Source: Psococerastis gibbosa (lineage: Eukaryota > Arthropoda > Insecta > Psocodea > Psocidae). From it: a DNA stretch of 64,000 bases. This document shows, piece by piece, positions 6,902-54,900 of the stretch; the first letter of the stretch is position 1, and each line of letters opens with the position of its first letter. The notes under the pieces are model-generated. The model worked only from the letters and a program-made list of their open reading frames with translations. It searched no databases and was not told the DNA's origin. Made by a program: the position numbers and the translations under genes. The stretch spans positions 6,696,001-6,760,000 of the forward strand of contig OZ020484.1 in assembly GCA_963971405.1 (NCBI GenBank), read 5' to 3'.

Positions 6902-7343
6902 TACGGCACTTATTCCACATACGTCAATAGTCAATAGTACATATGGTATTGACGGAAATTTTAATTTTTCATTTTTCACTTGTTTTCTATTGACACGTAT
7001 GCGCCAAATTTTTGAAATTTGTTCGCATTTGTTTTTTTGTAAATTTTGTTTGTATTTGTTTTCTTCGTACACTTATTATTTTTAATAAAACCTAATAATA
7101 GTAGGAGATCCGAAGTAAGATCGACCTTCACCGGTCTGTTTAATGGATGAAAACTGTTTTATAAACAATCTATTAAAATTTTTGTACTTAACATATTCCA
7201 TGACGCCATTTTAGTTTGTTATTGTTTGCAGCGCGTGATTTTACTCTATGATCATTGATCAATTTTAACAATGGCATAGAGTAAAATTGAAATGTCCGTC
7301 AATACCATATTTACTATTGACTATTGACGTGTGGAATAAGCGC
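6902..7343. mobile_element. Foldback MITE (palindrome copy 1)
   Basis: A 440-bp element with inverted ends CGGCACTTATTCCAC and GTGGAATAAGCGCC. The arms continue inward through TATTGACGGAAATTTTAAT. The centre carries the module GATCATTGATCAATTTTAAC. The element interrupts another repeat, so the flanks GGGCTAAAGCTCGC and ATAAAGACG can be compared with the uninterrupted copy near 29080-29125. That comparison supports a TTA-like target site. Confidence 0.85.
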
Positions 7344-7521
7344 CTTATATAAAGACGTTTTGCATTCATTCATTCATTCATTTAATAAAGTAATTTACAA
7401 AAATCAGGATTTCAGGAAATAAGGATTTCCCCCTAACCTAACAATTCCTACTAACTAAAATCAAAAATCAAATTAAAATTAAATGCCCGTGACTTACCTA
7501 TCACTAATTCATCATCTACTG

Positions 7522-7818: not shown

Positions 7819-7837
7819 ATCTACTCAATATCTAGAC

Positions 7838-7980
7838 ATCAATAATAAGTCTCTACCCTATTATAACTTAATTTATAATAGATAAGTTAAGTATCTACAT
7901 AACAGTCTTCTTGAAACACAAATCTCATCATTTTTTAATGCACACAATATGAAGAAAATATGACAAGTGGAATACACGCC
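7838..7980. mobile_element. Foldback MITE, one-armed remnant
   Basis: This holds the core AACTTAATTTATAATAGATA and one arm ending GACAAGTGGAATACACGCC. It matches the right half of the palindrome at 26240-26513. The left arm is missing. Confidence 0.72.
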
Positions 7981-7984
7981 ACAT

Positions 7985-9225: not shown

Positions 9226-9229
9226 ATTG

Positions 9230-10480: not shown

Positions 10481-10499
10481 TCATTTTCCGCCTCGGGTC

Positions 10500-11118: not shown

Positions 11119-11120
11119 AA

Positions 11121-11865: not shown

Positions 11866-11871
11866 TTTATT
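11866..11871 (-). terminator. Poly(A) signal of DUF745 gene A
   Basis: AATAAA on the minus strand, 84 bp past the TAA stop of gene A. Its position fits a short 3' UTR. Confidence 0.6.
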
Positions 11872-11954: not shown

Positions 11955-14900
11955 TTAATTTTTCACTTGCCGTCCTGTCGGCCGACCCTTTCCTCTGACT
12001 AACCCTCTGTCATTTCTTTTGGCCTGCCGTCTTTTTTTGGCACTTGCTGCCTGCTCCGCATCCTTTGCCTGCTCTTCTGCCTGGAATTACAAAAATTATA
12101 TATAATAATAATAATATGTGTATTGAAAAAAAATTACATTACACAGATCAGCAGTAGCCACAACAGCTACATAGCTGAAAGATAATCAACGTACAGTATC
12201 ACTCAAATTAAAAACAGAAATAGAAATAAATAAAACACAGCATTACATAATAAATTAATGAATTAATTAAATATTATTTCATTAAATAAATAAAGGATTT
12301 ATGAGGATAGGAGGAACTCCACGTTTTCTACTGCACACAGCCAGACCCTATGTTGACTGGCAAAAGTTCTGGGCTTCATGTCAGGATCAAAAAAGAAGGG
12401 CAGAGCGTTTAGCAACCTCGGAACCAAATAGTTTGGAGATTTCCGAAAGTTTTTCACCACAGGAAAGGGCACCAGGAAACGCTCTGCTCTTTTAAATGAA
12501 TGTGCTAAACTTATAGGGATTCTGGTAGGGAGATTTTCACATGATTTAAAATATAATTTAAGCAAATTATTGATGGACAAGTGCCGAAGAGGAAGTAATT
12601 CGAATTCGGAGAATAAGCGCCATGAAGAGAAGAACCTGGGTTTTTTGGCTATGGTGCGCAAGATTTAATTTTGAGTCACAAATATATATATATATATCCT
12701 GTATATATCATCTTCTTCTTCAGCCAACGCCCGTCCTTGGCTGGTAGGCCATTTGATGCCGTACCGCATAATATAGCTGGGCCAATCCCACCTGTGTCTT
12801 CGTTCAGTTTTCTACCTCATTGCCAGTGCAGCTGTATAGGTGATCAGCATTCCCTTCCCCTTGGAAGCAGGGGGGGGGGAGGGGCATCATACTATTGTAG
12901 AACATAGCGTAGTCTAACTTCCGCCACTTCTGCATATATATAAATATGCAATCCAGATTTTTTTCAGTACATTATCATTGAATATATTATAAATTGTATT
13001 GTTGTATATTCAATGACATTATTAAGCATTACAAGCAATTTGTACATCGCAAGGCAATTGATCGTGTGCGGTTACCTTTTTTTTAAAAGATCTGTTTACA
13101 ATTTACTAAAAAACTATGCAGCGCATTAATTTATGTCAATATCTGGAAGCTGACTAAAACCGAATTATCAAAATTTTGCAAGGCTAGGGCTAAGCTGCAG
13201 GCCAAAGCCGTAGCCAAAGGGGGTTCATGGGGGTTCAAACCCCCTCCCCCCTCCCCCCGAAATGAAATGGCTTGACACTAGACAGAATCGGATTTTGAGA
13301 AAAATAAAAACTACTATGTAATATCTAATGAAATTTCTGAAACCCCCCCCCCCAAAAAAAAATCCTGGCTACGGCCTTACTGCAGGCTACTATAGCGGAT
13401 AGCGGAATAGGCCACTAGATGTGGTGTCTAACTGCGAATTTAGACGCTTATTCCACCTGCGTCAATAGTGCATAGTAAATGTGGTATTGACGTGGTAGCA
13501 GACATTTTTAGACTGTCTTTAATGTCTGCAACCACGTTAATACCACATTTACTATGCACTATTGATGTAGGTGGAATAAGCGCCTTAACGAATGTAGCAG
13601 TCCCCGATCAAACATCGGCAAAATCGGAGGGCATTCAGTAATTACTCCTACAAAAATATGGTTATGCATCATTACTTTATACTTAATGTTTGATTTGTCG
13701 CATTAATTCTCTATTATTATCGACTTCAATGGCAAAGTGGCGTGCTTGTACTTGTGTAAGTCGTGATACGCCTTGCGATCACGTATCGTAACTCAACACG
13801 AGTACTAATCTTAAATCTACACTGAAGGCTGAAAAGGTCAATCGGATGCATTCATTAAAATGTTCATATGCGAATAGCCTTTTCATATAAATAAATGTTG
13901 TTTGTAGTTTCCAGCGCCTGCTTTCAGCATTTTCTGCTTTTAAGCAACCCTGTCAGCCTGGCGGGGCGATTGAGTCTGTATGTTAACTTGAGGCACCCTA
14001 AGGGCAGACTCCTTCACCTTGGGGAAAGGAGAGATGACTGACAGGGTGGACCTCCTGATTATAGTCCATTCTAAACCACTTGGGGAACATGTTAAAGTCA
14101 CACGATTGAATCGGAGGTGACCAGGACTCGACACGCACTTAGACTGACTGGTTATCATGTCCTACCATGTTCCCCTGCCAACGCTGTGCACACTACCAAG
14201 TTTGCCGCAGTTTGAAACATGTTCTGCTCTCATGGAGTCAACATGGTAAGGCCGTTGGCTGTATAAATAAATAGAAATTCTAACGCTCTCAGGTGTGTTT
14301 CTTTCTTGCTCTGTGGCAACTGCTCGGTTTTGGTAGCCCTAATTGCAGCCCTATAAGTTAGCTTATTCGCCTCCTATTCTAGCCTGAGAATATTTTGGTC
14401 CCACAGTAATACAATAATTCTGCAGCACTCACCTCTTCAGCCATTTTTCTTATGTCCTGTAGATCCTGACCGCAAGACTCCAGTTTCTGTTTGAGCGTTT
14501 CTATACGTGCTTTGGCAGCTTCCAGCATGTCTGTTTTGTCTCTCAAATCTTTGGCAGCGCCATCTTCAACAATTTTGCAATCTTCCAGGTTGCTTTCAGC
14601 GACTTGAAGAACCACTGCCAGTGTTTTTGCCTAAAACCCAGAAAAAAATGAATAGATCTATCGGCGTCCGGGACTGAAATCCTGATGAGCGCTCTGTTGC
14701 AGCCATAGGCGGGATGGGAGTGCAGTTCAGTTGGTAAAAGGGTCTCCCACAGGTAGTGTTATCCCGCACTGTGCCTGAGCAGATGGGTCAAAAAGCAGCA
14801 GAGGAGGTATAAAGACACCAAGCGTCAGTCTTTTGTAGATTCTCCACTCCTGAGGAAACAAAAGAAAGGCACTGGAAAATCAAAGACATCTCTGGGCCAT

Positions 14901-17280
14901 GTGGACTGGCGCGACGCTGTGGAGTAAACCAAGGCCCTACAAACGCTGCAGTAAAGTGTGCTACTGGACCATCCTCTTTCCACTTAATTCCAACTCCAAT
15001 TCCTCTCCTTCGATGCTTTATCCACTTCAAGGTCACGTATCAGCAGATTTATGCGTAGGTATGTAACCAAAATTTCTTGTCAGTAAACTTACAATTTGCG
15101 CTGCTTTGGCCGCAGCCGCTCGTGCCGCCTGCAAATGATCTTCGGCAGCACCTACAGCGGCTTCCTCTTCTTTGACAACTTGCTCGGCTTCCTCTAGTTC
15201 TTTCTCCAGATTTTTGACAACAGCATCTTTCCCAGCCAGAGCCGCAATCGCTGCTTCAGCCGCTTCTTCCGCTTCAACAGCTAATTCCAATTTCACCTGA
15301 TACGTTACCGTTATTAGAGATTGAGTAGGAAAGAACAATATAGTAAAGTTTTTAAGAATTAGTGTGCAGCTTGCAACTGTGCGTGAAGGAAACGTGGAGA
15401 GAATTAGAAACCGAAACGAAGACAGGGAAAGGCCGATGGGAATGAAAGAATACAATTAGCTGCGCCCACACTTTGCATTAGTGCGCAGCAGACTGCTGTA
15501 ATCCTTTTCGGTTAGTGTGGAATATGGATGCAAAAAACCATCGATACGCTGCGTTAGGGAACAGGGGCTTGAGAACCTAAAGGTGGACTCTGCCTAAAAA
15601 TTCCATTTTTGCGTGTATAATAAATGTGGACGTGCGGGATCGCAGTGGTTACGCTGTCACTACTCACTACGCTCGCAAAGTTGAAAGAGGAGGAAATTGC
15701 AGCACTGACAGACGCATCTGGACGTACTAGCCAAAAATTTGAAAACCACATAAGTTAATATACACAGTTTTAGCACTGTCTGGGCAGATTCCCCATCATG
15801 TTTATCAAGACTTCTCTAATTTCTTTCAAAATTTTCTTTTTCAAAAAATAATGTTTAATTACGAAACTGCTCGGATGCTGTTATTATCGTTAGCGGTTAG
15901 TTGTTTTAATGCTTGGATATGCCCATACTTGACGCAAAATACCTTGAATGATAGGTAGACTCAATCAAGCCTCATATAACTTCAGCTAAGCAAACCGAAA
16001 GAAGACAGTGTCGCAATGCCGGTCTTAAGAGTTCCTTACCTCATGAGCAGCTACTTCCGCAGCCACTTCTTGAGCTTGATGAGCCTTGGTAGCTTCTTCA
16101 GCAGCGTGAGCGGCTTCTTCGCGAGCTTTAGTATCTTCCTCACAATTTTCAACAGTGGAAAAACTGTTTTTCAATATATGAGCCTCTTTATCCACCGAAA
16201 CTTCTTCATCATCATGAGCCGTATTAGCTTCTTCGACTGCATGACCGGTATTTTCGCTGGCTTTCTCATCTTCTTTATTATTTTCAACTATAGAGAAACC
16301 TTTTCTTACCTCATGAGCAGCTTTGTCAGCAGCTGGCTCTTGTGCTTCATGAGCTTGAACTGCTTCCTCGACTGCATGGGCAGCTACATCGCTGGCTTTT
16401 GGATCTTCCTCCTCATTTCCGCAGCCCTTGCTAACCCTTTTCAATGAGTCTTGGTCTTCCGCAACCTAGAGTTGTGAAAGACAAATAACAAATAACTCAT
16501 CATCAATTAATAATTAAAACATAGGTAGGCTGTACTGGATACAGTAGGTAGATAGGTAACCTGCAATTATACTAAAAAATTCAACACGCCCGGCAGTCGC
16601 TTCTTCCTAACGGATAAAGGCCAGGCCCACTACAGTTTAGCTGACACAAGACCTCGCGGAAATCTTCACCTTTTATTACAATTCTTGACCCTTCGGTTCC
16701 CTACCAACGATATAGGAGGCATCCAGTACACGCGGCGATTGCGCGGATGACTTGGTCATGACACGACTTAATAGCCGAATAAATTGGGGGTTCCTATTGA
16801 GATAATTTGAGAGTCATTCCCTGGAACTTCGACAGCACAGATACTAATACAAATATTAAGATCCTTGGCCAGCTACAGCCGGATCGATTGTGTCACAACA
16901 GATCCTGTATTTTAAACAGAAATAAAAAAAATTTTAATAATAATAATAATGTTATGATAAACCACTCATCGTATTCTGAGGATTAGTAGATAGTGAATGT
17001 TTTAGAAAGATACTATTGATTATAGCAGAGTGCACGAAAACTTACCTGTCTTTTATGTGGGTTAGAACTAGTAGCAATCTGTTTCCCTTGGTCCGAAAAT
17101 ACAACTAATGGCGCTACAAACATACAAAAATACATTACATTTGCGGAACTGTAACGAGTAACGGCATCCATAATAAAGCCAAAGAAAACAAATCTAAAAA
17201 TTAATAATATTCAAACTAGACAACATGAACTCACCTAAAATCAATAGCAAAATTACGCACAATTTTACACAAATTATCAT
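11955..17280 (-). CDS. Secreted Ala/Glu-rich coiled-coil protein, DUF745 type (gene A)
   Basis: Six exons on the minus strand: 17280-17235, 17113-17046, 16465-16040, 15296-15093, 14630-14433 and 12080-11955. All have GT-AG borders and consistent phases, and together encode 355 residues. Residues 1-22 (start MIICVKLCVILLLIL) form a signal peptide split by a phase-1 intron. Residues 59-180 are 2.7 copies of a 45-residue repeat of the form AAHAVEEA...AAHEV. Residues 180-330 are an alanine-rich coiled coil (AGKDAVVKNLEKELEEAEQ, then AKTLAVVLQVAE and KTDMLEAAKARIE). That layout matches insect proteins with the DUF745 domain (Pfam PF05335, recognised by eye, no search run). The last 27 residues are basic (AKKKRRQAKR-like). 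The function is unknown; an extracellular structural role is an inference. Downstream paralogue-like gene B shares the 46-nt first exon design. Introns hold a LINE piece and MITEs. Confidence 0.85.
12299..12661 (-). mobile_element. LINE remnant, RT C-terminal end
   Basis: A 120-codon frame inside intron 5 of gene A. It resembles the C-terminal tail of insect non-LTR RT proteins: a KKPRFFSSW start, LLPLRHLSI, and the YLVPRLLNALPF motif near the end. There is no catalytic RT region, so it is a truncated copy. Confidence 0.68.
12681..12715. repeat. TA microsatellite
   Basis: A short (TA)n run followed by TATATATC. Confidence 0.8.
13203..13379. mobile_element. MITE with GGCCGTAGCC termini and poly-C arms
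   Basis: The ends are AAAGCCGTAGCCA and TGGCTACGGCCTT. The interior has C-rich blocks and the same AT-rich core as 590-680. It lies in intron 5 of gene A. Confidence 0.75.
13443..13584. mobile_element. Foldback MITE (palindrome copy 2)
   Basis: A 142-bp near-perfect hairpin. The left arm starts GACGCTTATTCCACC and the right arm ends GGTGGAATAAGCGCC. TTA flanks both sides, and the inner arm carries GTGGTAGCAGACATT. It lies in intron 5 of gene A. Confidence 0.9.
13700..13905 (+). repeat. Dispersed repeat (GACACGTCT/TTCATTAAA type)
   Basis: A copy of a family also at 33500-33720 (plus) and 37590-37690 and 62215-62365 (minus). Landmarks are GGCGTGCTTGTACTTGTG, CGCCTTGCGATC, GTCAATCGGATGCATTCATT and a TATGCGAATAG end. 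Confidence 0.65.
13912..14262 (+). repeat. 350-bp dispersed repeat, copy 1
   Basis: Nearly the same as 46258-46625 in the same orientation. It runs from CCTGTCAGCCTGGCGGGG through AAGGGCAGACTCCTTCACCT to TCAACATGGTAAGGCCGTTG. Partial inverse copies lie near 25840-26040 and 33110-33280. It has no clear protein, so it may be a non-autonomous element. Confidence 0.75.
16030..16445 (-). repeat. 135-bp coding tandem repeat in gene A exon 3
   Basis: Exon 3 holds two full 45-codon units and one partial unit, starting with codons for DPKAS, DEKAS and DTKAR. Each unit ends in HEV or HIL followed by a KGFS- or NSFS-like spacer. The first unit boundary and the true exon end both read CATGAG followed by GTAAG, so the repeat carries a donor-like sequence. 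Confidence 0.85.
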
Positions 17281-23800: not shown

Positions 23801-25656
23801 CCCCCATCAGTATTATTTAGGCGCCCATTCCACCGACCGGCTAGGGCTATTTACAAAAACAGTGACGTGGTAGCAGACATTCAAGACTTAGGCGGGGTAT
23901 CCACCGACCTCGCATTGCAGAATTGACGGAAACGTTTATTTTCCTCTTTGCCATAGTTAAAATTGATCAATGATTATACAGTAAAATCACAAACAAACTA
24001 AAATTAAAAAATGGCCTCATGGGATATGTTAAGTACAAACATTTTAATAGATTTCTATAAAAAGAAAAATTCTAATTTCCGTCAATGTCATTTGCATTCT
24101 GCAATGCAAGGTCGGTGGAAACGCCACCTAAGTCTTGAATGTCTGCTACCACGTCACCGTTTTTGTAAATAGCCCTAGCCGGTCGGTGGAATGGGCACCT
24201 AAACGCAATAGATATTTGTCGTGGTTCTTTGTCAATAAATAAGTTTTCAAAATTCATCCGGGAATGACTGATGAGACGGGAAGATGTGGAATCCTTATTT
24301 GAAGTGGATTATACTTGGACTGTTCGTTATGTTAATAATATGTAAGTTTAGTTTTAATAGTTGTATGTTTCATTTTTCTTATATATTTTAAATTATATCT
24401 TAGGGTAGTGAAAATTGTTATAGGTCTACCTAGGGCGACCTTACAATAATTATATGTTTGTTTGTTTTATGTTTCAATACACGCTTAGCCTACTTTTACC
24501 TACTTACTTATTTTGTACATTGAATTCTTTCAATCGCTCATTTGCTGTCCATGATATGGTCTTCTTATAAACACTTACTTCGGTGCACAGTAAGATTACC
24601 CCCAAATAATAATACATAATTATAGTACATACTGAGCAGTAATATAAATGTGTAGCCTACCTCGCTAAGATCCTGGTCTCTGTCAGAGGTATCAATCCAA
24701 TCTTTGCTTATTTCAGCTGTATTACAATTTAATAATAAACCTGAAAAACAATATTTTAAGATTCTTGAATAGTGCAATCAATGAAGTACTTACTGTATAA
24801 CCTACTGTACACCATAGAGTTACTTAATAATATAATATGAGTGGTATGAAAGTGAACCGGGCAAGGCCCATTGCAATTATTTTTTAAAAGAGCCAAAAAC
24901 TGTACGGTACCTAAAAGCACCTGTGGAAATTCGACTTCGGGCCTGCACGGCACTGTATATACACAGTTTGATTTGTAATTAATTGAACAATTCTTATACA
25001 AACGTAAACATACGTAGACCTGCTGTATCTGTAAACGTTAACTATTGTATTTTATATCTTGCCCAGGGTTGCCAAACGTCCCGCAATTCAAAGGACAGTC
25101 GCGTATTTGAAGGGGTTGTCCCGTGTCCCTTACTCGTATAAGGGACGGAAATTGTCCCGTATTTAAAAGCTTAGGTTAAAATGTGCTAATAAAATGTGTT
25201 ACCAAAAACATTTAAAAAAGTCCGACACACGAAATAGATGTTCGTCAAATTTAATTCAAGCTGAGTTGATTGTGTCCATCAATTCTGATATATTCAAAGC
25301 TCTGAATTAATTGATTATGTAAAAAAACTTAATAATTCGTAAAAAATTATTGATTTGGTAAAATCCAGTCAAAATTATTATTTTGTTAAAATAAATGAAA
25401 TAAAACAGTATTTTAAACAGCGTGATGAAGAATTACCAACCTTTTCAAATAGGTAGGTGCCTAGGTACCTACTGTAGGTGTCCACTTACTCTGGTTTGGA
25501 CGAGGGCCCTGAAGAAAAGTGTACAGTATATGCAATGGGGCGTCGCGTAAATGCGAAAAATTTATTTGGCAGCCCTGATCTTGCTTTAGCATTCAATTTT
25601 GCAAACTTACCTAATAGAGTAAATACTATAAGATATAATTTCAGGTCGAATTTCAT
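18271..25656 (-). CDS. Secreted coiled-coil protein related to gene A (gene B)
   Basis: Seven exons on the minus strand: 25656-25611, 24740-24661, 22208-22036, 21069-20924, 20433-20318, 19457-19248 and 18348-18271. All phases agree, giving 282 residues. Exon 1 is 46 nt and encodes a signal peptide (MKFDLKLYLIVFTLL), cut by a phase-1 intron exactly as in gene A. Residues 43-150 are charged and Lys/Glu-rich. Exon 6 (residues 188-257) is a coiled coil with AGAAQEAQEQV near its end, similar in style to the AHEAQEPAA segments of gene A. The protein ends in CSYGGSCEGG, with two cysteines six residues apart. I infer a diverged tandem paralogue of gene A, weakly DUF745-like. The function is unknown. 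The 3' end of exon 6 is duplicated several times in the following intron. Confidence 0.8.
18555..19250 (-). repeat. Tandem copies of gene B exon 6 end plus donor
   Basis: Units of about 166-173 bp repeat the last part of exon 6, its splice donor and the start of the intron. GTGCCTAGCTTTGCAAAGTT occurs at about 19082 and 19251, with a diverged form near 18748. The donor context CACGACGTAAGTAGC is intact at the real exon and in the copy near 18741, and is mutated near 19073. The copies lack an obvious acceptor. Confidence 0.8.
20025..20210. repeat. G/C-run element in gene B intron
   Basis: A G-run and C-rich block at 20034-20063 and a C-run at 20166-20178 flank an AT-rich core. The arrangement resembles the poly-C elements elsewhere but the core differs. 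Confidence 0.5.
20570..20790 (+). repeat. Dispersed SINE-like repeat (ATGTCCGAAA type)
   Basis: In intron 4 of gene B. It shows GTAAGCTTGTCTCAGCTTG, CAATGGGCAAAAA, ATGTCCGAAATCCACGG and GGACAACGAACCTATGG. It aligns over about 200 bp with 36180-36400. Confidence 0.7.
20847..20899. repeat. (GATT)n/(GGTT)n microsatellite
   Basis: Six or more GATT units followed by four GGTT units. Confidence 0.9.
21360..21570 (+). repeat. Dispersed CTGT-type repeat, copy 2
   Basis: Starts AACTTTGTGATGGTAGAAAT and runs through GTCTATCTGTCAGTCTGTCT to AACTACTCGGTGGATTTTGA and ATGGCATGTAAGTTCAC. It is colinear with 33908-34130. Confidence 0.8.
21591..21764 (-). mobile_element. tRNA-derived SINE
   Basis: On the minus strand it has a TGAGTAGTGGTACGGACTC head and a GGTTCGAGTCCCACACACGC B-box region. 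The body is shortened compared with 39933-40161. It lies in intron 3 of gene B. Confidence 0.8.
22234..22479 (+). mobile_element. LINE remnant, extreme C-terminus
   Basis: An 81-codon frame ends IKIRAADPVEGIRRR and contains GPRPIGRPRMSLETEVRED. Both are typical of the last residues of RTE-like LINE proteins (GRPR..W...VREDL, then IRAADP). It lies in intron 2 of gene B and is truncated. Confidence 0.75.
22498..23191. mobile_element. hAT-like non-autonomous element
   Basis: Inverted ends CAGGGGTTCCTAACCTTT and AAAGGTTGGGAACCCCTG bound a 694-bp interior with no transposase frame. A further single end, CAGGTTGGGAACCCCTGAG, sits at 23338-23357, so a second copy may be nested or adjacent. Confidence 0.72.
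23290..23664 (-). other. Unidentified 124-codon open frame in gene B intron
   Basis: The frame has protein-like composition (EISVHFGVQYVASAIQLDLL, then LVLIAVTHYKSKCRGAFLLL). It runs straight into a hAT-like repeat end at its 3' side. I do not recognise the family. It could be a fragment of a captured host gene or of a transposase, or chance. No clear exon borders were found. Confidence 0.3.
23820..24199. mobile_element. Foldback MITE (palindrome copy 3)
   Basis: A 380-bp hairpin. The outer arms begin GGCGCCCATTCCACCGACC and close with GGTCGGTGGAATGGGCACC. An inner arm starts AGGCGGGGTATCCACCGACC, so one palindrome appears nested in another. The core has TTAAAATTGATCAATGATTA. The copy at 37081-37464 has the same order. 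Confidence 0.9.
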
Positions 25657-26239: not shown

Positions 26240-26513
26240 GGCGGCTACCGGTTTCCACTTGTCAGTTTTTCATAATTTTTGCATTAAAAATTGATGAGAT
26301 TTTTGTTTTAAGGAGACTATTATGTAGACACTTAACTTAGCTATTCTGAATTAAGTTATAATATGGTAGAGACTTATTATTGATGTCTCTACCATATTAT
26401 AACTTAATTTATAATAGATAAGTTAAGTATCTACATAATAGTCACCATAAAACAGAAATCTCATCAATTTTTAATGCACAAATGAAGAAAAACTAACAAG
26501 TGGAATAGCCGCC
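26240..26513. mobile_element. Foldback MITE (palindrome copy 4)
   Basis: The ends are GGCGGCTACCGGTTTCCAC and GTGGAATAGCCGCC, flanked by TAA on both sides. The arms share TTAAAAATTGATGAGATTTT. The centre holds the module CCATATTATAACTTAATTTA. Confidence 0.88.
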
Positions 26514-30100: not shown

Positions 30101-33100
30101 TTAGGGCAGGGCTGTGGGCCAGATGTTGTGCAGTACGTTCCTTCAGTGAGCACAGGGGGCTGTCGACCACCCCGATTTTGTGCAGGTGGTGTGGCAGAAA
30201 ATTACTACTGTAGTACTATGTTAATTGCTACGTATATAATTCTAACGTAACCTACCTGATTTGAAATAGTCCTGAAATTGGCGGGATTCATGTTCTTGAG
30301 TCTCCCTGTGCTGAACAGGTACTCCTCCTAATGAATCATCTAACTCGACAGCCAGTATGGCCACAGCGCCTGACTCGTCCACTGAGGTATCTTTGCCGAT
30401 CCAGTAGTGAATGTCGTACGATTTCGACCCCCTCGAGTTCTTCGTGTACATGACAATGTACGAGTCACCACTGTAGAATTTCCCATAGCTGTCTTTGCTG
30501 ACAGCCACTGGAGCAAAGTTCTGGAAATAATTAGAAACAAAATTGAAAAATCTAATTTAAAAAGGAGTTCAGGCACAATCACTTTTCGCTTTTGTTGCAT
30601 ATCAATAGAGAAGACCAGTTTTCAATGGGTTTTGTCACACTACTAAATACATACTTTCATGTACATTGAATTCACGCAACAGGACTCAGGAGTGAAGTCA
30701 GGAATAAAACTCATAATAAGTTTTCTCATATTGATGAGAGAGTCTTGTAGCGCAAAAATAAGTCCAAAACTCATTAATGCATCTCTCAACGGAAACCGTT
30801 AGTAAAAGGCGAAAGATTTATAAGATTTGAAGAGAGGCCAAAGTATTTGGGATCACACACATGGCAACACTAAGGGCAACAGTCAATAACCCCTATTTTT
30901 TGCAAATGTTTCTTCTTTTTATCATCATTTGAAACCCCCTAGACCAATAGATAAAAATAGATTACTCGTGACTTCGTGGTAGCCTATTACATTTTAATAA
31001 ACTAAAAACAAAAACTTAGAATTTTATGAAAACTTTTATATGCCTAATTATTTAACCCGAATTAGTATAGTGAATATGATATGTGAAACAGGTACCCATT
31101 ATGGTTGAGTGGACTCAGGCCTTTTTCTGTTTAAGTAGAGTCTCAAACGTTGATCTTCCGTTTCATAGTCTAGATCTCTACTAAGTAAGTAGCTTAAGCA
31201 AATTCGTAATTGAAGGAATTATCAAACTGAAACTATAATGCCGTACCTAGAGTCCAATATAATGTAATCTAAATTTTTTGTCAGAAGCCAAATTGGTTTA
31301 AGGGAAATTAAGTTAGTAGACAAGAAAAATGTAGATAGAGCGAGATTAGGGCATAGGTCCTCTCTTACAAAATGTAATTATTTATTTATTTATTTAAACT
31401 TACCTATAGATTGGAGATTGCGAGTGCGTACTGCGCATCAATCGAATCTATCACTTTTCCATAGGCTAGCATCAAAGGCGGGTTCGCTTGAAAGGGAACC
31501 GCGAGTTGGCCCCGGTCTGAACCGCATTACGGCTATTAACAATTTCCCCTTGGCTGGCCAAACATAATGGCAACTTTATATTATTTTTGTTCTTAGCCAT
31601 TTACTAGCGTTCTGCTATGTAGTTATATAGAGAAAGATCTGGCCAAGAAAACTGTAAGATGAACATACAGCTGTATATCATTTAACGATTCACTTCTTTT
31701 ATGGCAGCCATTGGATGATTCATTGTTGATATGAAGCGAGTCATTTTATTATATTTATTATAAAATTATGTGCAGCTGCCAGAAAAGGTTAAGGTGTCAT
31801 TTATGGACAACTCAAACACTTCAGTGTAGAAATACAAACCAGAAAAGTTACGTGTTTCAACATCTTTCCCCACCGAAAATAGGGTTGCCAGATTTACAAT
31901 AAATGGGCCGTGCCCAGGCGGTGGTCCAAAAAAAAATGTTTTATGTAAACCTGTATTGTTTGAAGAATAGGAATACATTTATTTGACCTTCATTAATAAA
32001 TTAAATTACGTAAAAACATTTTTGGACACCTCCCCCCCCCCTCCCCGAAATCAAAATCTGGGCAAGCAGGCCTTGAATGGGTCATTCTATCTAGTGTAAA
32101 TTTTTCTAAAAAAGAAAAATGTCATTTTGATCTAGTCTTGAATTTAGTGAATTTTATGGAACTTTCAAACCATAGTACATAGCTTGTATCAGATTTTTTA
32201 AATTATTTCGTTCTATAAAGATCCTCCAGAAACAAAATTTTGCACACAAAGCATTGTCCGGTCAAACATTCATTTTTTTCACCGAACAGAGATACGAAAA
32301 ACCGGACTGTCCGGTGAGAAACCGGACACCTGGCAATCCTGACAGAAAATCCGTGGTTGTAGTCATGAGTTCTGGGGAGTGGGGAGTGGGGGATAGTAAA
32401 CTGTCACTGTTACAATGTATTGGTCTGTTCGTTGCAGAATATGCAATTGAGTTTAAAGGGGTTTTTAATATATTGAGGTGGACCCCCCCCCCCCTTGAGA
32501 GATCTGAAATTTAACCATAAGGAAATTATTTACTATGTAATTACACATTATGTCTATCTACTAATTTATAAATTGGAAAGCATGTTCGTGTAAACTCGGG
32601 CCGGTTCTTTATTATTTATAAAAAAAATTATTTATTTATATTATTGTGAGCATTTATGCCCCTTGATACAATACCTGGATCCACCCCTGGTTCTGGATTG
32701 AGTTAGACATATACCAGCAAACTGTACCTATCGGAATATTGACGCAGGTAGTAAGTACAGTAAACCTGCATGGCTCGCTTATCACACTAAACGGCGAATC
32801 AGACTGGAACCCGTATGCTAAACAGGCACCATTGCACAACTACTCTCTCTAAATGGTTTTATGAGTCAAAGTCAAGTTCTGGGCGAGTTGTAGTTTTTTA
32901 TAATAAAATTGTAATACTCTGAGGAAAACCCAACGAGGAAAATCTATGAGGATAGGTTCCAGGTAGGCTACGTTTTTTAGCCTTAATCTGATATAATAAT
33001 ATATAATAGATTCATCGCAATTTATAAAAATTAAGGAAAACTTTGTAGTTCACAAGTCTAAAATTTGGATCAATTGCTTTAAGAGGCGACAGTTTAGTTT

Positions 33101-36410: not shown

Positions 36411-36738
36411 TAATATTTAACCAATAAAATCCCAGGTTAAGATATTACAAAATAATCGCTATAGTAGAACCGCAGCTAGCTTCGTTATCATTGTTAGTTA
36501 GACCGTTTTGAATACAAGCGCTGTCTTTATTTAACTGATAATGAAACACTCATTTCAGCATGTAAGGGCGCTAAATGCATTGTAGGCCATGCCATGACCA
36601 AACTTCGTAGGCTGTCAATTAGTACGGTATTCAACTCAGCTATGACTTCAGCGCATGATTGCATAAGTGCAATTTTGTAGGCGTTAACAGTACTATAAAC
36701 ATAATAGTCTCCTTAGTAACTTTGTAAAACTTGCTGTC

Positions 36739-36975
36739 ACTCATTGTTAAAATTTACTTCGTATAGTCTTACAATAAAATTAAATTAAAAACACAACCGG
36801 TTTCGGCTCACGCCATCGTCAAGTGCGATTGAAAAAAGGTAAACAAAAGGTATGCAAGCTAAAACAAAATAAAATAAAATTTCAATCGCACTTGACGATG
36901 GCGTGAGCCGAAACCGGTTGTGTTTTTAATTTAATTTTATTGTAAGACTATACGAAGTAAATTTTAACAATGAGT
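36739..36975. mobile_element. Near-perfect foldback with 96-bp arms
   Basis: The left arm starts ACTCATTGTTAAAATTTACT and runs to CAAGTGCGATTGAAA. The right arm is its inverse, ending AACAATGAGT. The loop is about 45 bp. The arms contain AACCGGTTTCGGCTCACGCC. There are no visible mismatches, so it is likely recent. Confidence 0.9.
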
Positions 36976-37080
36976 GTTAACAGTACTAGCATCGGCCACT
37001 GACTCTAACTTTTGAGCTATCGTATTATGTCTGTTTTGATAACTCTTAAGTCATTATGAAGAGAAATAAGCTATGTGTTA

Positions 37081-37464
37081 GGCGCCCATTCCACCGACCG
37101 GCTAGGGCTATTTACAAAAACGGTGACGTGGTAGCAGACATTCAAGACTTAGGTGGCGTTTCCACCGACCTCGCAGAATGCAAATGACATTGACGGAAAT
37201 TAGAATTTTTCTTTTTATATAAATCTATTAAAATGTATGTACTTGACATATCCCATGACGCCATTTTTTAATTTTAGTTTGTTTGTTTGTGATTTTACTG
37301 TATGATCATTGATCAATTTTAACTAGCCTATGGCATAGAGGAAAATAAACATTTCCGTCAATTCTGCAATGCGAGGTCGGTGGAAATCCCACCTAAGCCT
37401 TGAATGTCGGCTACTACGTCACTGTTTTTGTAAATAGCCCTAGCCGGTCGGTGGAATGGGCGCC
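37081..37464. mobile_element. Foldback MITE (palindrome copy 5)
   Basis: Same structure as 23820-24199. Outer ends are GGCGCCCATTCCACCGACC and GGTCGGTGGAATGGGCGCC. An inner arm begins AGGTGGCGTTTCCACCGACC, and the core holds GATCATTGATCAATTTTAAC. Confidence 0.92.
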
Positions 37465-38518: not shown

Positions 38519-38946
38519 GGCGCCCATTCCACATACGTACAACGTCAATGAAAATTATGAAATTGAAGGACATTTCAATTTCTCATGGATGGGGGCCATT
38601 CCATATGTTTTTCAAAAATTGACAATTTTCAATTGAAGCGTATGCGCCAAATTTTTGAAATTTGTTTCTTGAAATTGTATTTGTTTTCTTCGTCGCCTTA
38701 TTATTTAATCCTTATTACAATTTTTATACAGAAATGCTTTCTTTTTAGAGAAATCAATCAAAATAGTTGTACTTGTCATATCACATGACGCCATTTTTTA
38801 ATTTTAGATTGTTTGTTTCATTGTTTGTGATTTTACTCTATTATCAATTGATCATTGATCAATTTTAACAATGGCATAGAGTAAAATTGAAATGCCCTTC
38901 AATTTCATAATTTTCATTGACGTTGTACGTATGTGGAATGGGCACC
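38519..38946. mobile_element. Foldback MITE (palindrome copy 6)
   Basis: The ends are GGCGCCCATTCCACATACG and CGTATGTGGAATGGGCACC. The arms continue through CAACGTCAATGAAAATTATG. The core again has GATCATTGATCAATTTTAAC, shared with 6902-7343. Confidence 0.9.
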
Positions 38947-39932: not shown

Positions 39933-40161
39933 AAATAAATAAATAAATAAATAAATAAGGGCTTTTTATTGTTTCTATTACTAAGCCAACCTAGCGGAGT
40001 TAGGGCTATAAAGCCCTCTCTTACACTCAACTAGGATGACCCGGGACCGCCTGCTTTACATGCCCTCCAAAGCATGGCCAGAAAATGTAGCCATGTGGGA
40101 CTCGAACCAACAACCTTTCGGGAGAAAGTCAGAGTCCGTACCACTACGCTACATGTCCTGA
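39933..40161 (-). mobile_element. tRNA-derived SINE, best copy
   Basis: On the minus strand it begins CAGGACATGTAGCGTAGTGG, which has an A-box-like TAGCGTAGTGG. It has a perfect B box GGTTCGAGTCC 47 bp further on, then a body (GCTTTGGAGGGCATGTAAAG, AACTCCGCTAGGTTGGCTTA) and an (AAAT)n-type tail. The spacing and boxes fit an internal RNA polymerase III promoter. The 74-codon frame across it is incidental. Confidence 0.88.
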
Positions 40162-40280
40162 AAAAATTGAAATCGAAAATTTCTACCAACACAACGCTTT
40201 CCCTATACTGCGTAAAAGTCCTCACCCGATTTCGAGAGCCTAGTCGAGCATTCACTTAAATTTTTGATTGAACGCGATTC

Positions 40281-40496
40281 AGGACATGTAGTGTAGTGGT
40301 ACAGACTCCGACTTTCACCCCCTTCACCCGAAAGATTGTTGGTTTGCTACATTTTCTGGCCATGCTTCAGAGGGCATGTAATGCAGGCGGTCCCGGGTCT
40401 TCCTAGTTGAGTGTAAGAGAGGGCTTTATAGCCCTCACTCCGCTAGGTTGGCTTAGTAATAGAACAAAAAGTGAATATCTATTTATTTATTTATTA
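40281..40496 (+). mobile_element. tRNA-derived SINE, inverted to its neighbour
   Basis: A plus-strand copy of the 39933-40161 element, about 120 bp away in the opposite orientation. The B box is lost: after GATTGTTGGTTT the sequence jumps to GCTACATTTTCTGGCC. It ends in a TTTATTTATT tail. Confidence 0.85.
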
Positions 40497-45986: not shown

Positions 45987-48900
45987 TCAGGTATTGAACA
46001 TTCGGCTGGCTGCCAGCTCTTCCCAGCTCGGATGGTTTAGGGAGCAAATTATACGTTCCATATTTATCGCATACAACGAATGCGCTGGTATAGCCGATTT
46101 GTGAACCTGAAACAAAGCAATTGGCTTTTAAATCTGCCACCTATGCACGGTTCTGGAAATGAGTGGTACCTAAAAGGTACTGATACCTAAAAGAGCAGGT
46201 TCAAAATTAGCATATGATAGCAACTGTTGAACGTCGTTGTTGTTGTTGTTGTTGTTGTTTCCAACGCCTGCTGTCAGCATTTCTGCTTTAAGCAACCCTG
46301 TCAGCCTGGCGGGGGGAGTGAGTCTGTTTGTTAACTTGAGGCACTCTAAGGGCAGACTCCTTCACCTCGGGGGAAAGGGGAGTTGACTGACACGGTGGAC
46401 CTCCTGATTATAGTGGATTCCGAACCACTTGGGGAACATGGTAAAGTCACACGATTAAATCGAAAGTTACCAGGACTTGACACGCACTTCGACTGACTGG
46501 TATAGTCTCAATGCGTTATCATGTCCCACCATGTTATCCTGCCAACACTGTGCACACTACCAAGTTCGCCGCAGTTTGTAACATGTTCTGCCCTCATGGA
46601 ATCAACATGGTAAGGCCGTTGGCAAAGCATAGCAACAAAAAGACTATAAAAAGAGCTGTTATTTCATAGGCAACCTGACCCATTGCTTGCATTTGAAAAG
46701 TCCTGAGATCGTAAAGCAATTGCGGTTTCGTGCAGTAGAAGAAATGTCCCTCTACATTTTAATACAAGGTAGGCTATACCTGTATGCGCTGGCCATCACA
46801 GGTACAGGTTGGCCACGGTTATGGGGAAAAAGGAGCACACTTTTACGCCTTCCATAAGTGTGACCAATCGACGACCAACCATATTTTACTTCTATGTATA
46901 TATTTATGTATTTTATTTTAAACATTTTAAACATTTTAAAATGTAAATGTACAGGCCTATGTCACAAACTCCTAAATGACAGCTCTTAGATTTCCTGTGA
47001 AATTTTCGTTTGCATAAATAATGAAAACAATCGTCATGGCACGCAACCCTTATGGATTCCTTGCAACCCTTGCAGGTCTACGCCTGGGACTCGACTAGTA
47101 GAGGATCGAATTTCTTGACTACTGTTCTATGTGGTATTTTTCCTCTTCCGGTCCATTAAGGTCTGATCCCATCATCATCTGAAAGGTCTCACGAAGGAAT
47201 ACTGCACCGCACCGCCACGCATTGGAAGATGGCCTTATGGTCTCAGAGGTGAAGACGCTAAAATCTCTAATCTGTACCCCCTCGTGGTGTAGATGGAAGC
47301 GCGTAATAGCGACTGAGTAGATAGGGGATCAAGTTTGAGCCGGGATAAGTGAAAAACAGTCTTTTTTGTGCAGAGCACACTCTTGTCCTGAGGTAGAGAA
47401 ACTGGCCCCAAAAGCAGAGGAACCCAATGAAGAGTTAAAGACAAATAAGTGTTTTTACATAATTAAATAAATAAAAACTTTTTGTTCTGTTACTAAGTCA
47501 ACCTAGTGGAGTTAGGGCTATAAAGCCCCCTCTTACACTCAACTAGGAAGGCCCGGGACCGCCTGCTTTACAAGCCCTCCAAAGCATGGCCAGAAAATGT
47601 AGGAAATGTAGGACTCGAACCAACAACCTTTCGGGTGAAAGTCAGAGTACCTACCACTATTCTACATGTCTTGTAAGTGAAATGCGTAGGGGGGGGGGGG
47701 GGTACTCAGATTTGCTCTGAACTGAAAGTCCACTTACCATAAGAGCTTGCATGACGTCAAAGGCGGAAATGGGCTGCTTTACAGGAGGAGGCCGAGCGGC
47801 ACACGCCATGTCATGCACTTCTTTTTGCTCCAACTCCCCCATAGTAGGCTGGCGTCTGGGGGCATCGTCGTCTATATCTGATGTCGCATCAACACTGAAA
47901 ATTTAATATAACATACAATATTCATCGCACGTCCGGTACACACGGGCGATTCACCCAGTCGCGATTTGTCGACGTCTTTTCCATTGTAGCCATAGGGATA
48001 GCAGAGGATTTCTTGTCAATTTCTCGACGATTTCCCCAGCTGGCCAACCGCAAAAAACTGCACCTAGACACGCCAGATCATAGAAATCTTCTGAATTAGA
48101 CTCTGTGGTTTTGATCCGATCATTCCCCAAGCCCTGTCGCCCCTATTCCTGACGATTATACTAACAATACTTTATACTTTTCCTTTTATACTTTCTTGTC
48201 AATTACATGACTGTATAATTTAACAGAAATATATATTTATTTATATATTTATTTACAATAGAAAAGACGTGGGCAAATCGTGACTGACAGAATCGTCCGT
48301 GCCTACCAGGTCTTAAGGTGGCTATTCCACTGGTCGATTTTCCCATCAAATATGATTAAAAAGAGTCTGCTACCATATTATAACTTAATTTATAATAGAT
48401 AAGTTATGTATCTACATAATAGTCTCCTTAAATATAATATGGTAGCAGACTCTTTTTAATCACATTTGATGGGAAAATCGACCAGTGGAATACCTGCCAA
48501 ATGTAATAATCACGAGGAAACTAACGATTCTAAGACCAGTTCAAAAATAGATTCTACCCAGAGACATTTTTGTACTTAGTTTGTGTAGGCTCCATATGAC
48601 GGCCATATTGATAACGTTCTGCTCCTCCACGATGGACATGTTTCGAATGGAAATCCAACATGTCTGCTATACATACAGCCATTTCGAGATCACCGCCGTA
48701 TCAATGTGATTTCTCTGATTGGCTAGCCAATAGTATCCTAAGACGACCATATTGATAACGTTCTGCTCCTCCACGATGGACATGTTTCGAATGGAAATCC
48801 AACATGTCTGCTATACATACAGCCATTTCGAGATCACCGCCGTATCAATGTGATTTCTCTGATTGGCTAGCCAATAGTATTCTAAGGCGACCATATTGAT

Positions 48901-51900
48901 AACGTTCTGCTCCTCCACGATGGACATGTTTCGAATGGAAATCCAACATGTCTGCTATACATACAGCCATTTCGAGAATACCGCCGTTTCTGAGTGATTT
49001 CTCTGATTGGCTGGTCAATACTTTTTTCTGAGCTATGTGTTGCAAATAGTAGATCCATGGCTCTGGATACCAGTCTTGCGTCTAGTAACTCCAAGAACAG
49101 CGAGACCAGCAAATTCCCAACGTAAACAAGATGAAATACAAATCATACAAACCTAGTCTTGACGTTTCTAAGCCATGGGTTTGGCACTGGGTTCCCAACA
49201 GACAATATAGCTCGCTTATTGTGCAGTCGGTAACCACTTCTTTGGCTCAGTATCGCAGTAAGAATATTCTTTAAGAAAAACTGAAAAAATCACACATTCA
49301 TAGATAAATAATTAATAAATAATGACTTTTGTTCTATTACTATTATTATTATTAGTGTTCATTAGGTGTCCCAAAGGGACCAAAGACGTAGGCCACAAAT
49401 GAGGGCCCATCGAACACCCTAATTAATTTTTACAACACAGTTTATCTCTCGAATACGGAACTGTGTCGCATTAGGTCAGCGACGGCAGAGGGGAATAATT
49501 CCACTTGTTCCTCTTCTATATACGGAGCTCCGAAGTACTCTAGACGCTTCCTCCACAGCGCTGGGCATCTGAAGAGCAGATGTGACGAGGTCTCTTCCTC
49601 CTCTGCGCAGTGCCTGCAAGATGTATTTTCCGCTGTGACAGCGTGAATAGTCAGTAAGTGCTTCTTAAAAGGGCCGTGTCCTGTTAAGGCTGCTATTACT
49701 GATCTAACACTGTTCCTGCTGAGTTGTAGCAGTTTTTTTGTCCAGGAAGGACAAGGTTTTTGTATCAAAAGTTTTGATAGACCCTTGGCATTTTTACGCC
49801 AGAAAGTTGCGAACTTCCTTCTTGTCTCTTCACTTGCCCTTCTCTTCATCAGGGAAAGCGCTATCGGCAGCAAAGGCTCAGGGCCAACGGGTGCTGTTTC
49901 CGAGCCTTCTCTAGCTAGTGAGTCTGCTACCTCGTTGCCTTCGATGCCCTCATGCCCAGGTACCCAAATAAGGTCAACTGAAAGCCCCAATTGATTAAGC
50001 CTTCTCAGAGTTTGCTTACATTGCAGTACTGTTGCAGATCGAGTTACTGGGTTAGCGATTGCGAATAAAGCCGCTTGACTGTCGGAGCAAATCACAATTT
50101 TTTCCATGTGGTAGACTTCATTTTCCAATGTGATCTCCATGGCTTTCATGATTGCAAATACCTCCGCCTGAAAGACTGTCGTATGCCTCCCCAATGGTAT
50201 TGCTAATGAGAGAGCTGGGTCAGCGCAATATATTCCGGCTCCCGCGGCTCCTTCCAGTAGGGATCACTCTGTGTACCAGATTCTACCTTCTGGGACAAAA
50301 CTTCCGGACAGCCATTCTTCGCGCGTAGGGAAACATGGAATAGGTACTACATCTAGGATAATACTTTTTGACATGTAATCCTGTGGCATTAATACCTCCT
50401 CGATATTTATTTGCTTTTCACTTATGATGGATGAGTGACTGGTGTACTGGGTATTGTTTTGCCACAATCCGCTGCAATTCAGCCTTAGAGCCGACATAAA
50501 GGCCGCCTCTTGAATGGTCAGTTCTAGAGGTGGAAAGTTTAGAGCTACCATTAAACTAGCTGTAGGGGTTGTCTTAAAGGCCCCAGTGCAGGCTACGCAT
50601 GCAAGCCTTTGCAGTTGACTTAGGATTGTCTTTGCAGTCTCCAGTTTTGTTCTTGGCCACCAAACCACAGAAGCATAGTTAATTATTGGTATGACCATCA
50701 TCTTGTAGAGCCAGGTCATAATTCGAGGTTTTAGTCCCCAGGTACTACCACAGGTTCTTCTCAAAGTCCACAGTAGTAACTTATTGTCAAAAATTACTCC
50801 TAGGTACTTTACTTCTTTCTTAAATGCGATATTCTTCCCAAAAAAATTTATTTCATTTAATTGTTCACTTCGTATGTGTTTATTGGTAAAGAGCATAGCC
50901 TCCGCCTTTTCTGGGTTAACTGTGAGTCCTTGGATTTCACACCATCTTTGGACAGCCCTTAATGCTTCTTGGATTCTGTGCAAAATAGTGGGTAGGTGAG
51001 ATCCTTGTTGCACAATCGCAAAATCGTCCGCGTATGCCTGAACGAAGAATCCAGCATCTAGTAGAATGGCCAGTAGTAGGTCAGCAATTAGACACCAAAG
51101 TAATGGCGAAATCAAACCGCCTTGGGGGCACCCTTTGGTTATAAAGACAGATACTTTGCATTTGCCTCTAGTTGCAAAAACTAATCTCTGCTTTAGCATT
51201 TTTTCAATCCACATTATTAGATAATGGTCAATCCCTCGATTTTTCAAAACTGTTACGATTGTATTAAAGCTAGAATGGTCGAAGGCTCCAGCAATGTCTA
51301 AAAATACGGCTACAGCCATTTCTTTACCGTATATAGCTTTTTCTAACTTGACTGTTAAATGATGAAGGGCAGCATCTGTTGACTTTCCTGACTGGTATGC
51401 ATACTGCCTTGGATTGATTGCCGTACTGTTTGCCAACTGATCTCTGAGATAATGGTCAACCAGCCTTTCCAAAGTTTTAAGTAAAAACGATGACAAGCTT
51501 ATAGGTCTGAAGGCCTTAGCGTTGGTATAGTCCGTTTTCCCAGGTTTCGGTATGAATGCCACTCGAACCCGCTTCCATTGCTTAGGGATATAACTTAGAC
51601 TGAGACATGCTCGAAAAATCTTTACAAGTGGTTCTGTGATATCATCTATAGCTTGTTGAAGCATCTTAGGTATAATGCCATCTTCTCCAGGAGATTTGTA
51701 AGGCGAAAATTTTCTAATCGCCCACTTAACTTTCTCAACATTAACCAGCACATTGCAGCTATCAACCGCTGTCAGATGGGTTTCCCCGCTGTTGTAGCTT
51801 TGAAAACTTGTAAGTTCATCCTCATCATTGGCAAGTCGAGAGTCAGGAAAGTGAACAGTGAACAGTTCTTTTAGTTTTTCTTCATGACTAGTAGTAAAAG

Positions 51901-54900
51901 TTCCGTCCTGTAGTTGCAGTGGGCCCTCAACAATCTTGCTATGCTTCTTCAGCGATGAGACAAGCCGTGTAGATTGTGGCAACGTTCCTATTTCTTGACA
52001 GAAGTCCTGCCATGACTTCCTCTTAGCCCGTTTAATTGTTTGTTTAAATACTCTTAGGGTTTCCCTGTAGTCTTTAATATCACACTGTTTTTGGCTTCTA
52101 CGGGCACGATTAGAGAGCATTTTAGTTTTTCTTCTTAATTTTTCTATTTCCCCGTTCCACCATCGTACATTAGTCTTGTTCTTAACTGTTCGAAGGGGGC
52201 AGGCTTCATGATAGGACTGGTTTATAGCTGTTGACATGGCTTGCACAGTGTTCTCTAATGCCTCACAACTGAATACATCGCAGTTTAAATTTTTAATTTT
52301 TTCCGATATTGATTTTCTGTACTTACTCTGTACTGTGTAGCCAGAATGGCGTAGAGGTAACGACTCGGACTATCATCCAGAAGGTGACTGGTTCGAGTCC
52401 CACCCGAATGCCAAAATTTTCTAGTGGTACAATTATTTATCTTCTGACTACCATGCTTCGGAGGGCATGTAAAGCCGGCGGTCCCGGCAGTCTTCCCTGA
52501 CTGTCAATAGGTTAAACAGGAGGCTGTTGATGCAACCTGAAAACTCCTGTACCACGGGTAGTACCACCCCGACACGAATTTACTTTTTTACTAAGCTAAG
52601 CTATGAAGTCCTCTTTTACACCCAACGAAGCATGGCCAGAAAATGTAGAAAGTATCTTTCGTATGAAAGCCAAATCAAGGGTCTGTACTCTCCATGAACT
52701 AATATTTATGGTTGAAGGGAAAACTTCCATAGGCACATTTTGTACTATTGCTCGGAGGTGAATTTAATGGAACCGCCAAGAGTCATTTGAATCGAAGATA
52801 AGGGTTGTCCTCATAGAACATTGCCGATGTGCTAGGTCTTCTACAGTTACCCGCCACATATTCAGAGACACGTGGACTGGACTGTCTTCATAAGACGATA
52901 CAGCTTCTTAAGCTTCTTTAGGCGGGGTTTCCATTGACCTCGCATTTGAGCGTGAGCGTGACATTGATCTGGTAGCAGACATTTTTCGACTGTCTTGAAT
53001 GTCTGCTACCACGTCAATATCACGCTCACGCTCAAATGCGAGGTCAACGGAAACCCCGCCTTAGTTTTAGGACTAAAACGCTGCTAATAATAAAGTAGTT
53101 GAGTCTTGGATACAAACACGTATACATGTAATTTATAAAAGAAAGAATTAAATTAGGAAAGAAATAATAGGATCAATAAGGGAATACAATTCTATCACCA
53201 AGTAAGGTCTCACCTCTAGGGCGATAAGGAGCCCACAACTACTAAGCAAACGTTATTTAAAACGTTATTATATTTTTATACTCGTACTAATTACGAAGTA
53301 CAGTATAGAGGCAGTGGTCACGAATAGCATACAATACAGTAAAATACAAGCGGCTGAAATGAAATTCATCAGACAATCCGTCAGATGAGAAGAAGGGATA
53401 GGATTAGAAATGAAGTGATTGGAAGAGAGTTTGGGGTTGGAAGAACCATTGGTGGAGAAGATAGCGAGATAGAAGAAATGGCTGGAGGAAGAAATAGAGG
53501 AACATGAAGAAGGGAAAACCGAAAAAAATGGAACAAAGACAAAGCGGAAATACGGTTTAAATGGATTTACTTTTTGTACGATATTATTTAGTTTTTTTAG
53601 CTATAAAGCTATTTACCTGCACGGCTACGACAAGAAATTTGGCTGCCGCGTCGTCAGCCCCTTCCATGCCCAGTTCCCAGGCCCCCACCATCAGCCTGCT
53701 CATCACCAGTGTGTGGTCCGGAAGGAAGAGTTCTTGTGCACAGTTCCGCTGCGCTTCCTCCTGAAGATGCTGTGGAGGAGCTTCTAGTGTTGGAAGGTAG
53801 TTCACAGGATCGACAGGCTGTACAATAAAACAAAATCGTTTAGGGGTAGCCTCATGTAGTGGCGGAGCTTCTAGTTGTGGAAGGTTTCTCACAGGTTTTT
53901 AAGCTTCAGAGGAGGACGATACGATATCTCTGTGGTGGTTTGCCTAGAGTCGCATCACGTCGTCCACATTTCAAAAGACAGGGTATTCTAAGGGCACCAT
54001 CTCCCTATGTTCCGGAGGTGTGCACCTATGTAAAGAAGGTGTATGGCACCTTAGCTAGGCATGAGTGTCACTCAGCCTAGGGGCAGGGATTACCTTGTGA
54101 TCCCTAAACATAGAACCAGTAGGTATGAGGGTAAACCAGCCCATGCAGGTGCTAGATACTTACAAGGGCTACTTAGGAACATTAGAGATGTGGAAAAAAT
54201 GACTGCTTTTAGAAGTAAACTAAAGAGGCACCTCATAGACCAATCCTTGTGTGTGGAGGGCATGATGTGGTACTAGACAGCCGGCGTTCTACTCATGATT
54301 CTCAGTGCAGACATTACTAGTTTTAGTGTTTCATGTATTTATTGTTATTGTGTCTTAGGTTTTAGAACGCCTATTGTTTCGTGTTAATGATTCAATACAG
54401 AAATATTCTATTATATTCAGGATCGACCGGTTTTAAAATAAAACAAAAACAGTTCAGTGGCAGTCTCATTCATACCCGTTCAACTTCCCCAGTGGAGTAC
54501 CAATGATAGGCGTCGTGGTCCCTCCAGCGCCACCTCCACTAAGAATACCCTAGTTTCCTAGTAATGATCAGAGACAATTTTCCAAAACTTACCTGAAATG
54601 CCCCTTTATCTCCGGATCGCTTCGGTTTAGCCAGCTTTGCTTTTTTGTTACCGTACTTTGACCGGACATTGTCACTGGTTAGAAAAGTACATTTATTGAA
54701 GAGGCAAAGAAGAAATTCATTGTGGTATCGAAGATTTTCTACGCTTATTTGTTTTCGGGCTAAAGTGTCAAATTCTTCTTTCGTCATCTGAAAAACATTA
54801 ATTTTTAACGAATGGTAAAAATTGGTCAAAACATTGGGGTTTATCTCTCTTACAATAGATTCCGATAGGAAATGTATCCATTGCTAGATTTAGATAAATA

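Follow-up and report, generated by a model that had tools for sequence, protein, structure and literature searches.

Middle-base mismatches between the target site duplications of a palindromic PIF/Harbinger-type MITE family in Psococerastis gibbosa suggest carry-over of donor overhangs

Target site duplications (TSDs) are taken to reproduce the target exactly, and on this basis serve to define transposon superfamilies and full-length copies. In the psocodean insect Psococerastis gibbosa (family Psocidae), a family of palindromic MITEs inserts into C-TWA-G with duplication of TWA, and in many well-preserved copies the left and right duplications differ solely in their middle base. For the 384-bp subfamily this was counted genome-wide in copies of 369–399 bp with both 14-bp ends exact and TWA on each side, segmental duplicates included: the flanks match in 636/923 copies (306 TTA/TTA and 330 TAA/TAA), and differ at the middle base alone in 287/923 (31%, 95% interval 28–34%; 185 TAA/TTA and 102 TTA/TAA). 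Our favoured reading, to which we assign a probability of roughly 0.55, is that the elements are non-autonomous PIF/Harbinger-type MITEs at C-TWA-G in which the mismatch arises through carry-over of donor overhangs.

The family was noticed in a stretch of 64,000 nt of contig OZ020484.1 (assembly GCA_963971405.1, positions 6,696,001 to 6,760,000), hereafter the window. All eight foldback palindromes listed in the initial annotation were recovered by an inverted-repeat check and the end motifs of its two one-armed remnants were located (Table 1), with the left limit of the first copy corrected from 6902 to 6905. The annotation described arms pairing almost perfectly over 60–190 bp; across the eight copies, alignment of the outermost 60 nt of the arms gives between 51/65 and 58/60 identical columns, but the longest family arm in the window measures 121 nt (26253–26505) rather than 190. 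Palindromy over the whole length, also proposed, extends nearly from end to end in four copies (13443, 26240, 48317 and 52921) and does not do so in the other four, where arms of 64–108 nt enclose unpaired loops of 172–302 nt. The claim that four sites show TTA or TAA on both sides stands for 13443, 26240 and 52921, while at 6905 the left TTA is shifted by one base; a clean 3-bp flank repeat is thus present in 3/8 window copies.

Table 1. Copies and remnants of the foldback family in the window (positions are those of the window)
Feature	Position	Strand	Flanks and remarks
Foldback copy, 440 bp, arms ~67 nt	6905..7344		TTA on the right; TTA on the left shifted by one base
One-armed remnant	7838..7980	-	end motif 7967-7980, 2 mismatches; left limit from the initial annotation
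142-bp subfamily copy	13443..13584		TTA/TTA
384-bp subfamily copy	23820..24199		TTA/TAA
Foldback copy, 274 bp, near full-length palindrome	26240..26513		TAA/TAA
384-bp subfamily copy	37081..37464		TTA/ATC
428-bp subfamily copy	38519..38946		GAA/TAA
Foldback copy, 182 bp	48317..48498		TAA/AAA
Foldback copy, 140 bp, GGCGGGGTTTCC ends	52921..53060		TTA/TTA
One-armed remnant	58408..58490	-	exact end motif 58477-58490, then TAA; left limit from the initial annotation

Other features share the window with these copies. Three further inverted repeats lie at 39973–40464 (a 119-nt pair), 36738–36976 (a 97-nt pair) and 34772–35145, all without this family's ends; in one of them the 97-nt arms show 100% complementarity. 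On the reverse strand, RVT_1 and RNase H frames stand side by side at 49442–52369, by appearance a non-LTR-type retrotransposon, and a partial DDE_1 transposase frame, which we take to be pogo/Tigger-like, occupies 60516–61340. The same strand carries a U5 spliceosomal RNA match (30730–30846, 63.4 bits) and a weak match to the insect family DUF745 (16025–16465, 29.7 bits, below the cut-off of 33.3).

The 14-bp end motif, allowing up to two mismatches, occurs 15 times in the window against a mean of 0.62 and a maximum of 4 in 100 shuffles. Genome-wide (409 Mb, 68 contigs), the exact motif GGCGCYYATTCCAC was found 5054 times in forward and 5168 times in reverse orientation (10,222 in total), and the same motif read backwards as a control gave 3 forward and 1 reverse matches. 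The window itself is above average, with 7 exact matches where the genome-wide density predicts ~1.6. The anatomy of the family was read from the sequence around the first 100 exact matches of the motif on contig C1 (77 loci), which gave 67 paired elements, of which 61 were kept after dropping six with an identical left flank, and 14 unpaired exact ends. Six copies at C1:3.06–3.71 Mb (L047, L049, L054, L055, L056 and L059) have common flanks (ATTTTTCGGTAA...TTAGGCATGCGC), which indicates one insertion multiplied through local duplication.

Together with the eight window copies, the 61 sampled elements form clusters of ~384 bp (38 members, mean pairwise identity 94.8%), ~142 bp (11 members, 83.2%), ~428 bp (8 members, 98.0%) and ~470 bp (3 members, 92.8%), leaving two elements of 154 and 159 bp that pair with each other and seven singletons, including four window copies. 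In the 384-bp consensus the 68-nt arms are perfect; inward, the left arm is followed by TTA and the right arm by TAA, and then comes a second set of ends (GGCGGGGTTTCC and GGTGGCGTTTCC) of the kind present at 52921 in the window. This internal set suggests that the 384-bp element originated as a foldback element inserted in the centre of another and was then amplified as a unit. The interior of this consensus matches the 428-bp consensus at 80% over 167 columns and the 470-bp consensus at 84% over 154 columns, and between the latter two the identity is 68% over 402 columns, which indicates a common source of the three subfamilies. MITE traits are seen in the size of the main subfamilies (~142–470 bp), in the number of copies (at least 923 with exact ends for one subfamily) and in the lack of coding capacity, the last judged by eye on the consensus. 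Copies of the 384-bp type lie ~2% from their consensus.

The assignment to PIF/Harbinger, already suggested in the initial annotation from a 3-bp TWA duplication and GG ends, is supported by the 3-bp duplication, the C-TWA-G target, the GG start and several paralogous empty sites that carry a single TWA. The terminal inverted repeats are G+C-rich, and duplication of TWA at the target is described for PIF/Harbinger (PMC4482050). In the C1 sample, left and right flanks match over 3 bp in 27/61 copies, whereas a match of 4 bp or more occurs in 0/61, and a longer duplication is rejected; matches over 2 bp amount to 9/61 copies in total. The outer flank bases are T in 53/61 and A in 58/61 copies per side, 119/122 pooled flanks have A or T in the middle, and C precedes TWA in 61/122. 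The 3-bp duplication, which the initial annotation expected to be consistent, is so only in part, given the 287/923 copies with a mismatched middle base; yet each of the seven mismatched copies readable against an empty site stands where there is a single TWA. We regard the classification of these elements as non-autonomous PIF/Harbinger-type, Tourist-like MITEs with long or full-length palindromes as supported.

Within the 923 copies the middle bases of the two flanks are correlated (phi 0.39) and far from identical, and TAA/TTA is commoner than TTA/TAA (185 vs 102, p 1e-6). In the C1 sample the middle bases differ in 21/44 copies with TWA on both sides, which would have been compatible with full independence of left and right (Fisher p 0.77); this independence fails genome-wide, and the genome value of 31% is preferred over that of the sample. 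An orientation bias among matched copies (13 vs 7) is too small for use. Among the 61 copies, ten combine a TWA flank with a non-TWA one; non-TWA duplications are matched in the case of ATA/ATA (twice, once in a nested copy), CAA/CAA and TCA/TCA (L070), and unmatched in TTT/GTT, TAC/TAT and AAA/ATA.

The simplest origin of the mismatches would be faithful duplication of TWA followed by point mutation, and at ~2% divergence from the consensus some of them must indeed be mutational. As a general source, however, mutation is very improbable: for the same copy type, the genome-wide count of middle bases altered to C or G on one side alone is 49, which at equal rates predicts ~25 swaps between A and T where 287 were observed, and mismatched copies show no excess divergence. 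The latter was measured on 20 + 20 + 20 early list entries (skipping the first one for TTA/TAA, four for matched and three for TAA/TTA copies), with means of 0.0205 and 0.0168 for the 40 mismatched copies and of 0.0177 for the 20 matched ones (p 0.99); an earlier comparison of 20 with 20 copies gave p 0.63. In a small unselected sample of 13 copies each, the mismatched mean was higher (0.0230 vs 0.0173), with equal medians.

For copies nested in another repeat, related repeats without the element reveal the sequence of the empty site. The paralogues of four matched copies (L026, L045, L077 and L114) carry a single TWA identical to both flanks. Among the mismatched copies, the TWA of the empty site equals one of the two flanks in seven of the eight with a paralogous repeat, reading TTA for L062, L088 and L097 and TAA for L063, L078, L098 and L102, while L140 is unreadable because of an indel. 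Support per mismatched copy comes from 1–6 paralogues of 67–95% identity; in L063 and in one L062 row the coverage of one side falls to as little as 15–17 bp. One of the six paralogues of L097 reads TAA instead of TTA, those of L063 are split between TAA and TGA, L102 has two, one of them gapped, and L078, L088 and L098 have one each (67–84% identity). No clear TWA was seen at the paralogous site for L024, L043, L064 and L120, of which L064 and L120 are matched copies, and the paralogues of L022 (TGA/TAA) are mixed; L030, whose match lies within the MITE family, and L072, which is nested, were left out of this reading. As the flanks of the seven mismatched copies align across the junction, one repeat appears to be derived from the target, and the other to have its middle base flipped.

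These alignments also bear on the possibility that ectopic recombination or inversion between copies shuffled the flanks, so that the two TWA stem from different insertions. Inverted copies are available by the thousands, and one 384-bp copy (L086, C1:8340144–8340528) has flanks that are inverted duplicates over ~255 bp on each side. In the seven mismatched copies, though, the joined flanks align over the junction with one paralogous repeat (over the short one-sided stretches given above for L063 and an L062 row), and some non-TWA duplications remain matched; shuffling is rejected as the main cause on the empty-site alignments and we consider it very improbable. In the locus that surrounds L086 (L146, C1:8335500–8345200), 102/103 bases beside the element are identical between the inverted flanks and another element end lies at L146:5284; the locus represents either a palindromic rearrangement with the MITE at its centre or an error of the assembly.

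We favour instead a route by way of sticky ends. Staggered excision would leave the element with donor-derived 5'-TWA overhangs on both ends, which would pair with the TWA of a new target and be sealed without gap synthesis. Where donor and target are unlike in W, an A:A or T:T mismatch would result at that end, and its resolution to either base would allow the two flanks to diverge in the middle. For mPing, a 5' 3-nt staggered cleavage at the TSD has been proposed from excision sites in yeast (PMC4561436), and such cleavage would imply an excised element that retains 5'-TWA on both ends. A stationary model of this process reproduces the four flank classes with donor retention of 0.49 (A:A) and 0.38 (T:T), two parameters for two free numbers and hence a fit rather than a test. 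In yeast, mPing donors with TAA/TTA are resealed more precisely than those with TTA/TAA (PMC4561436), which may favour the persistence of TAA/TTA, as in the excess of this class observed here. What is seen of sticky-end joining is its predicted signature, in the mismatched flanks and the empty sites. The proposal that sticky-end transposition operates in a natural PIF/Harbinger-type family, whose TSDs would then not be strict target copies and whose middle TSD base would reflect the travel history of the element, is one for which we would put the odds slightly short of even.

Several observations stand against carry-over. Some non-TWA duplications are matched, as listed above for ATA/ATA, CAA/CAA and TCA/TCA, and the one related element with short terminal inverted repeats that was read (L154) has matched TTA/TTA flanks. 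Carry-over is also not evident for mPing, as donors with TCA/TCA flanks gave 45/46 insertions in TTA/TAA (PMC4561436); the non-matching TSDs of that study belong to engineered constructs. No report of natural central-base mismatches between the TSDs of Harbinger elements was found among open-access titles and abstract openings, where the mPing excision work was the relevant one, and the word "mismatch" was not found in the available part of a comparison in rice (PMC4423477).

The palindromic structure itself offers another explanation. Folding of the strand would bring the left and right TWA opposite one another, with T:A, W*W and A:T as the facing bases, so that repair or template switching in the cruciform or hairpin would alter the middle base only and convert TTA/TTA or TAA/TAA into TTA/TAA or TAA/TTA. 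Such correction accounts for a change limited to the middle base and for ATA/ATA and CAA/CAA having remained matched, and changes at the same position of both arms exceed expectation (12 vs 4.6 in 75 copies, four of them at one variable column), an excess by which some arm-to-arm correction seems to occur. After insertion, however, the arms are mostly uncorrected (51 private one-arm changes vs 2 paired ones in 95 copies), mismatched copies show no excess divergence, and the TCA/TCA of L070 has stayed uncorrected. We judge this route unlikely overall, if a serious contender; correction at the time of insertion, rather than after it, is possible.

Transposition of these elements would presumably be effected in trans by a Harbinger transposase. 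An autonomous relative would be expected to encode a DDE_Tnp_4 transposase together with a Myb/SANT or MADF-type protein. The autonomous partner with the same ends anticipated in the initial annotation was not found among 13 loci (L147–L159, four of them read as one end piece only). The DDE_Tnp_4 profile has at least 150 matches genome-wide (150 of 220 candidates scored) and the MADF profile at least 113 (150 of 210 candidates scored), and among the matches listed several pairs of the two lie within a few kb on opposite strands. The search for MADF was prompted by an open frame in the MITE interior (MAS.DM.ST.ILIDF), guessed to be where an ORF of MADF type begins; scanned against Pfam in a 29-residue version, this frame gave no match. 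Five high-scoring DDE_Tnp_4 loci (L147–L151) were rejected as partners, the family ends being absent from their borders; the four that were Pfam-scanned contain HTH_Tnp_4 and DDE_Tnp_4, with HTH_Tnp_4 below the cut-off in L149. Eight further loci near MADF matches were read, including the four covered by one end piece. MITE consensuses gave only short matches to the transposase loci, except for a MITE fragment at L159:833–901. The nearest candidate is the Harbinger-like L154 (C2:50587000–50590300), which carries MADF and DDE_Tnp_4 genes on opposite strands, with one stop within the transposase frame. It is like the MITEs in its TTA/TTA duplication and in an end (AGCCGCGTCTCCACCAACC) that resembles, without equalling, GGCGGGGTTTCCACCGACC, and unlike them in its 25-bp ends, the lack of a foldback and an end sequence that is different.

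One of the high-scoring loci raises the question of the ISL2EU group, which is related to PIF/Harbinger and of which a YqaJ domain is a trait. L147 (C2:19670500–19676500), one of ~21 listed matches at 157–162 bits, has a YqaJ exonuclease frame near its DDE_Tnp_4 transposase, the one such case among the four loci scanned with Pfam, and also contains a family copy of ~160 bp with TTA/TTA flanks. Membership of the family in ISL2EU rather than PIF/Harbinger itself is nevertheless highly doubtful, as the end motif is absent from the borders of L147–L151 and as ISL2EU duplicates AT within A-AT-T (PMC4482050), compared with the 3 bp of TWA duplicated here.

That 31% of well-preserved copies depart from the TSD rule at a single base, and are no older than the rest, directs attention to the fate of the overhang on the excised Harbinger element, a step that in the literature available has so far been inferred from excision sites and not from insertion sites. 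Counting middle-base mismatches provides a simple genome-wide assay for any TWA family, and annotation that requires identical TSDs would lose about one-third of such copies.

Compared with known systems, the family resembles PIF/Harbinger MITEs (Tourist-like, mPing) in its 3-bp TWA duplication, in ends that start with GG and in being non-autonomous; it differs from them in its long or full-length palindromes and in the mismatch at the middle TSD base that 31% of 384-bp copies with exact ends show. The NuwaII group has the target C|TNA|G (PMC4482050), and the likeness lies in C-TNA-G, with the middle base here being A or T in nearly all flanks, i.e., TWA. As regards mechanism rather than membership, the model can be likened to piggyBac, the ends of which leave with flank-derived 5' overhangs of 4 nt (TTAA) that are dispensable for target choice (PMC7351741, the reference list of which cites work on bypassing DNA synthesis). 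The piggyBac target of 4 bp and its ends are different, and the parallel is that of an excised element that would take a piece of its former flank along to its next site.
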